DNA of 39,695 bases from positions 1 through 39,695 of the IMG/VR virus record IMGVR_UViG_3300042914_001893; one strand, 5' to 3'. The translations under genes and the position numbers were made by a program. Below the pieces are notes generated by a model. It worked only from the letters and a program-made list of their open reading frames with translations, was not told the origin of the DNA and did no database searches. Of the stretch, positions 13,926-16,824 are shown piece after piece (the first letter of the stretch is position 1; each line of letters begins with the position of its first letter). This DNA comes from a virus.

Positions 13926-14070
13926 AACTGTAAACCGCTACCAATTCACGACTTAGAACAATTTTATAAAAATTGGCAAAATACCTCTTGCGTGTTTTGG
14001 CGCAATCGTGCATATTGATCCTGTCGCAACGACGCGACACGATGATAAGAAACGACAAGGGAATACGACA
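13926..14070 (+). promoter_or_regulatory. Intergenic region with two small dyads, probable early leader
   Basis: 145 bases between the HNH gene and the first gene of the early block. It holds an AT-rich perfect hairpin, CAATTTT-ATA-AAAATTG (13959-13975), and a short GC dyad, TGTCGC-AACGAC-GCGACA (14022-14039). There is no convincing sigma70 promoter pair; a weak TTGCGT...CATATT set near 13988-14016 matches poorly. Since the functional class of genes changes here, a promoter or operator is expected, possibly one read by a phage sigma factor. Confidence 0.3.
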
Positions 14071-14319: not shown

Positions 14320-14372
14320 CCCACTGATGAGCCCCGGGGCGCCGGGGCGAAACCCTACGGGGTCTGGGACGC
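14306..14372 (+). ncRNA. Type I hammerhead ribozyme
   Basis: All core nucleotides are present in order. Stem I 5' strand CCCA (14320-14323); CUGAUGA core (14324-14330); stem II GCCCCGG (14331-14337) with CCGGGGC (14342-14348), loop GGCG; GAAA (14349-14352); stem III CCC (14353-14355) with GGG (14360-14362), loop UACG, closed by the A14352-U14363 pair; cleavage triplet GUC with scission after C14364; stem I 3' strand UGGG (14365-14368). Stem I can continue with GCGU (14306-14309) pairing ACGC (14369-14372), leaving a 10-nt bulge (14310-14319) that could dock on loop II. Helices II and III are closed and I is open, so it is type I. It would cut the mRNA between the genes at 14071 and 14406. The structure is seen directly; activity is inferred. 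Confidence 0.85.
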
Positions 14373-14405
14373 AATTACACGATGATACGATAGGAGATGA
14401 TGGCC

Positions 14406-15152
14406 ATGGTTACTTTGACAATCGATGACGTATTTTCCGCCGGATCTGTCGAGCTTGCGATTGTTTCGTGGGCGCAAAGTGCCGACGGTGTTAACGCTGG
14501 CAACGAACAAAGCGCAGTAGTCGGACTCAATGAAGGCGCGCGTATCTACATTGATAGCGCCGATGGCCGGACGTGCGAACAAATTGGCGCAGAATCAACG
14601 GATCAAAATGCACGTATGGACATTGGCGGATCGTACTACACGATCAGCGATTGGAGCGAATATTCAGTCGTCGAGCTCGAAGTACCGACAATCGATGAGG
14701 CATTGGAGCGGCCAGACCTTGCCCGTAAAATGGCGCGCGCGGCAAAAGCCTGGCATTTTGCTGAAAGCGATTTATCTGGTTGGGCTGAACTTATTGAAGA
14801 GCTCGACGAAATTGAAGGTGCCGCAACAACTCTAAAAGGCTATGGCGATATGTACACTGGCGGTTGCATCGCCGACGCAGCGCATGAATGGCTCGATGCG
14901 GGCATCGAGGATGATGGATCGATCGGATCATGGTGCGATATCGGGTGTTGGAATGCTTCTACGGCGGCGGCGTGGATTGCCGCTGGCCTAACTCCAAATG
15001 ACGTTGAATCGGCCGCTAAATCCATGCAGGAGGAAACCAGCGACGACGATATGCACGCTCGATATTCAGGTGGAATTATTTACGCGTGCTGCAATAATGA
15101 CATTGATTACAAAGACGTAATTAAAATGCACAATAATCTCATGGCCGAATAA
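14406..15152 (+). CDS. Acidic hypothetical early protein
   Basis: 248 residues, strongly acidic (for example LIEELDEIEGAATT, QEETSDDDMHARY). Three in-frame ATGs occur (14397, 14400, 14406); I chose 14406 because AGGAG (14392-14396) is then 9 nt away. The C-terminal half has a recurrent helical unit, 'AAHEWLDAGI' and 'AAAWIAAGLTPNDV', of the kind seen in many phage and plasmid early proteins. The charge suggests a DNA-mimic or anti-host role, but no known anti-restriction signature is visible. It is directly downstream of the ribozyme. Confidence 0.6.
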   Translation: MVTLTIDDVFSAGSVELAIVSWAQSADGVNAGNEQSAVVGLNEGARIYIDSADGRTCEQIGAESTDQNARMDIGGSYYTISDWSEYSVVELEVPTIDEALERPDLARKMARAAKAWHFAESDLSGWAELIEELDEIEGAATTLKGYGDMYTGGCIADAAHEWLDAGIEDDGSIGSWCDIGCWNASTAAAWIAAGLTPNDVESAAKSMQEETSDDDMHARYSGGIIYACCNNDIDYKDVIKMHNNLMAE

Positions 15153-15368
15153 TCCCGATCACGGATGGCGGGGTCGTCCCAATACCAACGAGCGTCGTGA
15201 TCAAAGAGAACCATCACGACGCATTCAGCGGCGGCGGGGAATGTGAGTATCGACTTCTTTGTACGGTCCCGCCATCCGCGTTTCTGACCGTCTCCACCAC
15301 TGCACTCCAATCGAGTGCAGGACTGGAGCCGATCACAATGACCGGCTCAACGACGATAGGAGATGATT
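15153..15368 (+). ncRNA. Structured intergenic RNA (candidate novel ncRNA/leader)
   Basis: 216 bases without a credible gene and with strong secondary structure. A 16-bp stem pairs CGGATGGCGGGGTCGT (15162-15177) with ACGGTCCCGCCATCCG (15263-15278), with two G.U wobbles. Inside it a perfect 10-bp hairpin, GCGTCGTGAT (15192-15201) with ATCACGACGC (15213-15222), has an 11-nt loop. Downstream are an 8-bp hairpin CTGCACTC/GAGTGCAG (15300-15307/15313-15320) and a 6-bp hairpin GAGCCG/CGGCTC (15326-15331/15343-15348). The ribosome site for the next gene comes right after. No poly-U tract follows, so this is not a simple terminator. No known ribozyme or riboswitch core was recognised. Confidence 0.6.
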
Positions 15369-15623
15369 ATGCCGATACCCGTTACTCTGGCCGACTTGCG
15401 CGCCGATGCGCAAATGCAGATCCAGCAGAAACTAGCCGAAGTTTCGCAATCCGCGCGTAGCCTGGCTGACCTTACAAGAGGTCAATACCTCGAATCCGAT
15501 GGCGCGTTAATGTACGCGCTCAACACAATTCAGAGAGAACTATCGGACGCAGTTGCGGCCGCACGGATTCTAGCTTTTCTACGGTATTGCCGGGAGGAAT
15601 CCAACAATGATAATCAGGAGTAA
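15369..15623 (+). CDS. Hypothetical helical early protein
   Basis: 84 residues, MPIPVTLADLRADAQMQIQQ..., nearly all helix with heptad-like spacing (QQKLAEVSQSARSLADLTRG). ATG 15369 is 6 nt after AGGAG (15358-15362); an earlier ATG at 15363 touches the ribosome site and is unlikely. The leader ACGATAGGAGATGAT is identical to that of the gene at 14406. Function unknown. Confidence 0.6.
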   Translation: MPIPVTLADLRADAQMQIQQKLAEVSQSARSLADLTRGQYLESDGALMYALNTIQRELSDAVAAARILAFLRYCREESNNDNQE

Positions 15624-16503: not shown

Positions 16504-16824
16504 ATGACGACGGACATACCATTCCGTCCGGGCTTGAGAGTACATCGCCGAATTGGGGAAAGTTTTGTTATTTTCGTCAAGGGCAAAGAGGATTTTATTA
16601 CCACGCTAACGCTCAAACATGCGTCCGGCGGAAAGGCCGTGCTCGAGATTAATGAGGGTAATGGACCTGAGATCGAGCATATGCGGATACATGAGGAGAT
16701 CGTATTTGGCGATGGCGAAGACGAGTGCGTGATTGTCCTAGATAGTGCCGCTGGATCTCATGCCAGTTTTCGGGCGCTGGCTGGACCAGCGGTTAGGATT
16801 CGGAGAAATGAGGAAACGAGATGA
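16504..16824 (+). CDS. CsrA-like RNA-binding regulator (divergent)
   Basis: 106 residues from ATG 16504, after AGAGGA (16492-16497). The first 65 residues follow the CsrA strand order: LRVHRRIGESFVIF corresponds to 'L.R..GESI.I', then DFITTLTLKHASGGKAVLEI to 'I.V.VL...GG.VRLGI', then GPEIEHMRIHEEIVFG to 'AP..I.V.REEI'. CsrA homodimers bind GGA motifs at ribosome sites and control translation. Here the arginine of 'HREE' appears replaced (RIHEEI), and about 35 extra residues follow, so RNA binding may differ. It ends in an ATGA overlap with the Sak4 gene. Alternative: an unrelated small beta protein. Confidence 0.45.
   Translation: MTTDIPFRPGLRVHRRIGESFVIFVKGKEDFITTLTLKHASGGKAVLEINEGNGPEIEHMRIHEEIVFGDGEDECVIVLDSAAGSHASFRALAGPAVRIRRNEETR

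Follow-up and report, generated by a model that had tools for sequence, protein, structure and literature searches.

Two conserved RNA modules, one terminator-like and one a likely translational switch, between genes of an uncultured phage

Introduction

A gap between two genes of a phage genome may hold an RNA in its own right, and the question raised by the present locus is what such an RNA would be and do. The sequence analysed, here called the window, comprises 39,695 bases (positions 1-39,695) of the IMG/VR virus record IMGVR_UViG_3300042914_001893, and the gap, 15153-15368, extends from the stop codon at 15150-15152 to the start of the next gene. A preliminary description had proposed a single folded, functional and unclassified RNA, either a regulatory leader, a decoy or an unknown ribozyme, and had set termination aside because no T-tract was seen.

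Results

Fold and composition of the gap

Minimum-energy folding of 15140-15380 gave a 16-bp stem (15162-15177 with 15263-15278), a perfect 10-bp hairpin inside it (15192-15201/15213-15222) and, 3' of the stem, two further hairpins followed by a ribosome site, the arrangement first described. The energy was −90.7 kcal/mol compared with −75.5 (sd 5.0) for 200 dinucleotide shuffles (z = −3.05), one of which folded equally well.

The Rfam search proposed earlier was carried out with Rfam 15: no family matched the gap at gathering thresholds, and its plus strand had no match when the search was relaxed to E values up to 10. The two short ORFs overlapping the gap (15107-15310, minus strand; 15197-15460, plus strand) gave nothing in Pfam and no convincing match in PHROG, and the homologous copies change in the manner of an RNA, which rules out a decayed gene. 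No protein family fits the region, related phages do carry compensatory changes, and the proposal of a folded, functional and unclassified RNA is thereby strongly supported. The comparison of relatives resolves the gap, in place of a single RNA, into two separate conserved modules, which occur apart from each other in related contigs and neither of which belongs to a catalogued RNA family.

15157-15284, plus strand: module A, a conserved, terminator-like RNA with a proposed pseudoknot, covered by a covariance model and found in 34 contigs
15285-15368, plus strand: module B, leader of the ORF at 15369-15623

No description of the module A RNA was found in the open-licence literature.

Distribution of module A

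Relatives were fetched by searching with the upstream and downstream proteins, and further copies of module A by pattern scans of viral contigs. The covariance model scored 15150-15298 at 139.6 bits (E 2e-41), the window being one of the model's own sequences. Module A is present in 34 IMG/VR contigs, window included. A first search with the covariance model (R1) yielded 28, of which 25 scored at least 138 bits and three, lacking the P3 hairpin described below, 87 bits; the other six came from three looser viral scans, which added six, zero and zero contigs, the last returning known contigs only. The extra copies from the pattern scans adjoin quite different genes. One contig, L002, encodes an upstream protein identical to that of the window and may be the same virus. 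The phage collection gave no match, the plasmid collection gave short chance matches only, and no real copy was found in bacterial genomes, one each for 84,980 species, where of three pattern matches two had no model match and one had E 2.

Fold and covariation of module A

The model of module A consists of four helices, namely P1, P2, P3 and a loop-to-strand pseudoknot.

15163-15177, plus strand: 5' strand of P1 (15 bp), pairing with 15263-15277
15178-15180, plus strand: 5' strand of P2 (CCY), pairing with GGG at 15236-15238
15192-15222, plus strand: P3 hairpin, stem 15192-15201/15213-15222, loop CAAAGAGAACC
15205-15210, plus strand: pseudoknot strand AGAGAA in the P3 loop, with UUCUUU at 15255-15260 as proposed partner
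15255-15260, plus strand: pseudoknot strand UUCUUU, two bases 5' of the P1 3' strand
15263-15277, plus strand: 3' strand of P1, running into the T-tract position (15281 on)

Over the 24 aligned copies 99.8% of the cells are paired and double compensatory changes occur at 12 pairs. The covariation score was reached by none of 500 shuffles, and slid controls pair at 42-52%; further pair types are no more numerous than in the shuffles. RNAalifold recovers P1, P2 and P3 unaided. The covariation comes from P1, with 100% of cells paired and five pairs changed on both sides, and from P3, which is 99.1% paired with changes on both sides at seven of nine pairs. The window has an additional P1 pair (15162-15278), and the outer C15160-G15280 is invariant across copies. 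In P2, two pairs are invariant and the third is C-G or U-G, with CCU/AGG (C-G to U-A) in L055. The pseudoknot columns are 100% paired and show only two changes, both keeping G-U pairs; because they are otherwise invariant, they argue only faintly for this helix. Considering that P2 and AGAGAA/UUCUUU are near-invariant and that their few changes keep pairing, both appear plausible. In three contigs (L032, L033 and L035) P3 and the head are lost and P1 is retained, followed by five T in L032.

Between clade I pairs the core differs by 0.040 (4.0%) against 0.209 (20.9%) at four-fold synonymous sites of neighbouring genes, i.e. it changes five times more slowly, and P3 differs by 0.352 (35.2%), above four-fold sites, while its pairing persists; these rates are a guide and not a test, as the core columns were picked by viewing the alignment and module A was possibly exchanged between phages. 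The fast change of P3 with pairing kept suggests either exchange between lineages or selection for change. Many invariant bases of module A lie outside helices, and the head is conserved beyond the needs of pairing.

The 3' end of module A

15281-15288, plus strand: T-tract position, degraded in the window (TTTCTGAC), with 5-8 T of 8 in 28 of 30 copies

Module A has the orientation of the genes and follows closely on a stop codon. The pair C15160-G15280 closes its stem and the next base begins the T run. At least five T in the eight bases after the P1 base were counted in 28 of 30 copies, a set that includes near-identical contigs, compared with 2.5% of the positions that follow a G in these contigs. 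The exceptions are the window and L005, with four T of eight each. The earlier statement that there is no T-tract therefore holds for the window, which is one of the two exceptional copies, and fails for the relatives, whose geometry speaks for the termination that had been set aside.

Like an intrinsic terminator, module A has a stable G+C-rich stem (P1, 15 bp, base G15280) that ends at a T-tract, the tract itself being degraded in the window; the loop is not short, ~85 nt separating the P1 strands. Common terminator scans allow loops of 3-8 nt, and a simple terminator scan of the window does not list module A. Among nested folds, forbidding P1 brought out no conserved alternative structure competing with it, and leaving P1 unformed costs 27-38 kcal/mol in single sequences. 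Since P1 is costly to unform and has no conserved substitute, module A resembles a terminator stem that forms constitutively and bears a folded head, rather than a two-state switch. A ligand switch (riboswitch) melting P1 is disfavoured on the same grounds, at a cost of ~32 kcal/mol among these folds. A CsrA sponge was also considered and rejected, as the GGA sites in P1 are not conserved.

Genes and RNA elements around module A

14320-14368, plus strand: hammerhead-ribozyme-like element, between two accessory genes of module A's cassette
14400-15152, plus strand: upstream accessory gene (250 aa), whose stop directly precedes module A

The genes flanking module A vary, with upstream and downstream families differing between contigs. 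In the window clade the order is a promoter-like site with a 5' hairpin, an 82-aa gene, the hammerhead-like element, the 250-aa gene, module A, module B and the next operon. The conserved promoter-like TTGCGT-17-CATATT and its hairpin lie at 13988-14041; this promoter was read by eye and scores below the threshold of the promoter scan. The 250-aa protein matches no known family, and its predicted structure (mean pLDDT 56) is too poor to use. The accessory protein before module A (window, L007, L022 and others) exists in a 250-aa form and a 112-114-aa form, with only the C-terminal part in common.

The corresponding order in the second clade is a TTGACA-17-TATTGT promoter with a 5' hairpin, an exchangeable gene, module A, and then helix-turn-helix-like, CsrA-like and primase-like genes. 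The helix-turn-helix-like gene has a Pfam E value of 3e-5 in L022 and no match in L020. In the L020-type contigs the ribosome site of this gene directly adjoins the T-tract, and the one promoter of the scanned stretch lies upstream of module A, with none between T-tract and ribosome site. The CsrA-like gene in the operon behind module A (L022 1705-2058 and relatives) was assigned at E 4e-5, below the curated cut-off. In the window, a GES motif occurs in a more distal gene of the operon (16504-16821); a profile comparison against the other clade reached a probability of 5.8%, and we do not claim this gene as CsrA-like.

Two further arrangements were observed. A new promoter-like leader follows the T-tract of module A in L007, L009, L013 and L014. 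In L050 and L055 the exchangeable gene is absent and a TTGACA-17-TATATT promoter lies within ~30 nt of module A, from which an RNA of about 165 nt is predicted; the promoter-to-A spacing is the same in L053 and L054.

The accessory cassettes start with a promoter-like site and an immediate hairpin (TGTCGC..GCGACA or GTGTCG..CGACAC) at the probable mRNA 5' end, as at 13988-14041 in the window, after module A in L007, L009, L013 and L014, and at 10282-10345 in L020. Another element, found 3' of module A in L022 (1347-1440), L024 (240-345), L028, L050, L053, L055 and L062, has a long stem (CGAGTGATGGGG/CCCCATCACTCG) around a hairpin and then a T-rich stretch touching the ribosome site; similar in layout to module A, it may be its relative.

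The hammerhead-like element has a CUGAUGA and GAAA core and stems that are visible by eye and conserved in relatives, and its Rfam score in the window is 22.5 bits against a cut-off of 48.5. It usually lies right after a stop codon, between accessory genes, in many phage contigs (window, L003, L004, L005, L007-L009, L011, L013, L014, L030, L037 and L100-L111), and its stem II alternates between GCCCCGG/CCGGGGC and GACCGGC/GGCCGGTC. At ~5900-5920 of L014 a cut-off hammerhead start (CCCACTGATG) is joined directly to module B, which we read as a visible recombination joint of two RNA elements. As hammerheads have been reported to flank ardA in a phage-related region (PMC3088659), there is precedent for RNA elements at cassette junctions.

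Module B and the downstream gene

15289-15295, plus strand: anti-Shine-Dalgarno strand CGUCUCC, pairing with GGAGAUG at 15359-15365
15300-15320, plus strand: hairpin H1 (15300-15307/15313-15320)
15326-15348, plus strand: hairpin H2 (15326-15331/15343-15348, inner 15333-15335/15339-15341)
15369-15623, plus strand: downstream gene (84 aa), its start set by the spacing to AGGAG at 15358-15362

The start was placed at 15369 and not at 15363 owing to the ribosome-site spacing and to relatives without an ATG at 15363. The 84-aa protein matches no known family. The exact core of module B was found in 14 contigs, and in every contig examined the same small gene lies 3' of it. Module A directly precedes module B in some contigs, and another gene intervenes in L007, L009, L013 and L014.

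In the folds of the eight distinct module B sequences, UCUCC pairs with the ribosome site (GGAGA) in a helix that encloses two hairpins. In an alternative pairing 15292-15296 binds UGGAG at 15324-15328 (CUCCA/UGGAG); the two are close in energy in the window, at −35.2 kcal/mol when the ribosome site is covered and −33.4 for the alternative. Module B thus has two mutually exclusive pairings, one of them over the ribosome site, as in leaders that sequester it. One pair of H2 is changed on both sides (C-G to U-A). As the UCUCC and GGAGA strands are both invariant in the eight sequences, covariation neither supports nor refutes their helix; the conservation fits a switch and the covariation is no proof of it. 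Module B is likely a translational switch for the next gene. Among the functions first listed, a regulatory leader suits module B; for module A, whose 3' geometry points to transcription termination, a decoy or an unknown ribozyme finds little positive evidence.

Discussion

The reading that we favour, with moderate confidence, is that module A acts as an intrinsic terminator at the end of an exchangeable accessory-gene cassette, its head being folded and pseudoknotted. We suggest termination because P1 meets the T-tract after a stop codon while the flanking gene families differ. It gains support from L032, L033 and L035, which dropped the head yet kept P1, with a T run in L032. From the observed fold, covariation, T-tract, strand and position we infer the following course. 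The P3 hairpin would fold first during transcription; P2 (CCY/GGG) and the proposed pseudoknot would then place the 5' strand of P1 beside the emerging 3' strand, P1 would zip from the pseudoknot side and the U run would release the polymerase, the terminator "loop" being a folded head of ~85 nt. In the window, where the T-tract is degraded, read-through into the next operon would be expected, after which module B would control ribosome access, one strand pairing with either the ribosome site or its own hairpin. Since termination alone does not explain the conservation of the head, it probably has a binding partner as well, such as RNA polymerase, a factor of the Nus type or some protein of host or phage.

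Several points weigh against this terminator. Its loop is unusually long for an intrinsic one, an invariant head would be superfluous in a plain terminator, only four of the eight bases are T in the window and L005, and the columns behind the pseudoknot are nearly invariant. Moreover, a replication operon would be silenced by full termination in L020-type contigs, a consequence avoided only if termination is incomplete or regulated or if the operon has a promoter elsewhere.

Control is the core of the first rival, an attenuator or antitermination site at which a phage or host factor bound to the head lets the polymerase into the replication operon; we regard it as possible, though not probable. 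The L020-type arrangement favours it, with a T-tract abutting the ribosome site of the helix-turn-helix-like gene, then the CsrA-like gene and primase, and with its sole promoter in the scanned stretch upstream of module A; so does a head sequence conserved past pairing needs. On the other hand, P1 has no conserved competitor and would take 27-38 kcal/mol to unform, which makes a simple ligand switch unlikely, and the separate promoter-like leader of L007-type loci would make such control needless. A broader version makes module A the first member of a terminator class in which a phage or host factor recognises the pseudoknotted head, a single RNA thus ending accessory transcripts and gating entry into the replication operon, with module B as a translational gate behind it; this version is offered tentatively and we consider it rather doubtful.

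A trans-acting small RNA or decoy, derived from the 3' ends of accessory transcripts and terminated by P1 and the U-tract, is unlikely. L050 and L055 lost the accessory gene and kept module A, with a P2 change from C-G to U-A in L055; their promoter stands close enough for a short RNA, and L053 and L054 share the spacing. Small RNAs carried by phages are known to capture those of the host (PMC4104026). However, these four contigs probably share one deletion, no target was found and the proposed pseudoknot would occupy much of the exposed head. Very improbable is a new self-cleaving ribozyme, a counterpart of the hammerhead one gene upstream: the position just past a stop codon between cassette genes, the compact, probably pseudoknotted fold and the many invariant bases outside helices would suit it, but cleavage does not explain the T-tract at the stem base, no Rfam ribozyme matches and no candidate cleavage site stands out. 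That the inverted structure works as DNA in a recombination hot spot, like attC in integron cassettes, is scarcely credible despite the exchange of genes on both sides, given that the G-U pairs in P1 and P3 and the constant strand relative to the genes point to RNA and that shared sequence alone suffices for homologous exchange.

Module A is a well-supported structured RNA family without a catalogue entry, carried by uncultured phages beside hammerhead-like elements. The main puzzle is its conserved head, which termination alone does not need; should the head turn out to control read-through, this would represent a novel means by which a phage times its replication genes. The gene orders suggest that accessory genes travel with RNA punctuation, i.e. 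promoter with 5' hairpin, ribozyme spacer, terminator-like end and ribosome-site switch.

Among known systems, intrinsic (Rho-independent) terminators share with module A a G+C-rich stem with an immediate T-tract after a stop codon, whereas module A has a folded loop of ~85 nt that is probably pseudoknotted and whose sequence is highly conserved. The HK022 put (PMC9378689) and EAR-type antitermination RNAs, with which module A was compared through Rfam only, are likewise folded RNAs in a transcript, put in that of a phage, that could act on the polymerase; they suppress termination downstream, whereas module A itself bears the T-tract. The hammerheads flanking ardA and other phage accessory genes (PMC3088659) are also structured RNAs between such genes; module A differs in carrying a T-tract and in lacking the hammerhead core. 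As with phage anti-sRNAs (PMC4104026), the accessory region of module A may give a small RNA in L050-type loci. Module B, which has no Rfam match, resembles riboswitch and thermosensor leaders that hide the ribosome site in having two exclusive conserved pairings, one of which covers it.
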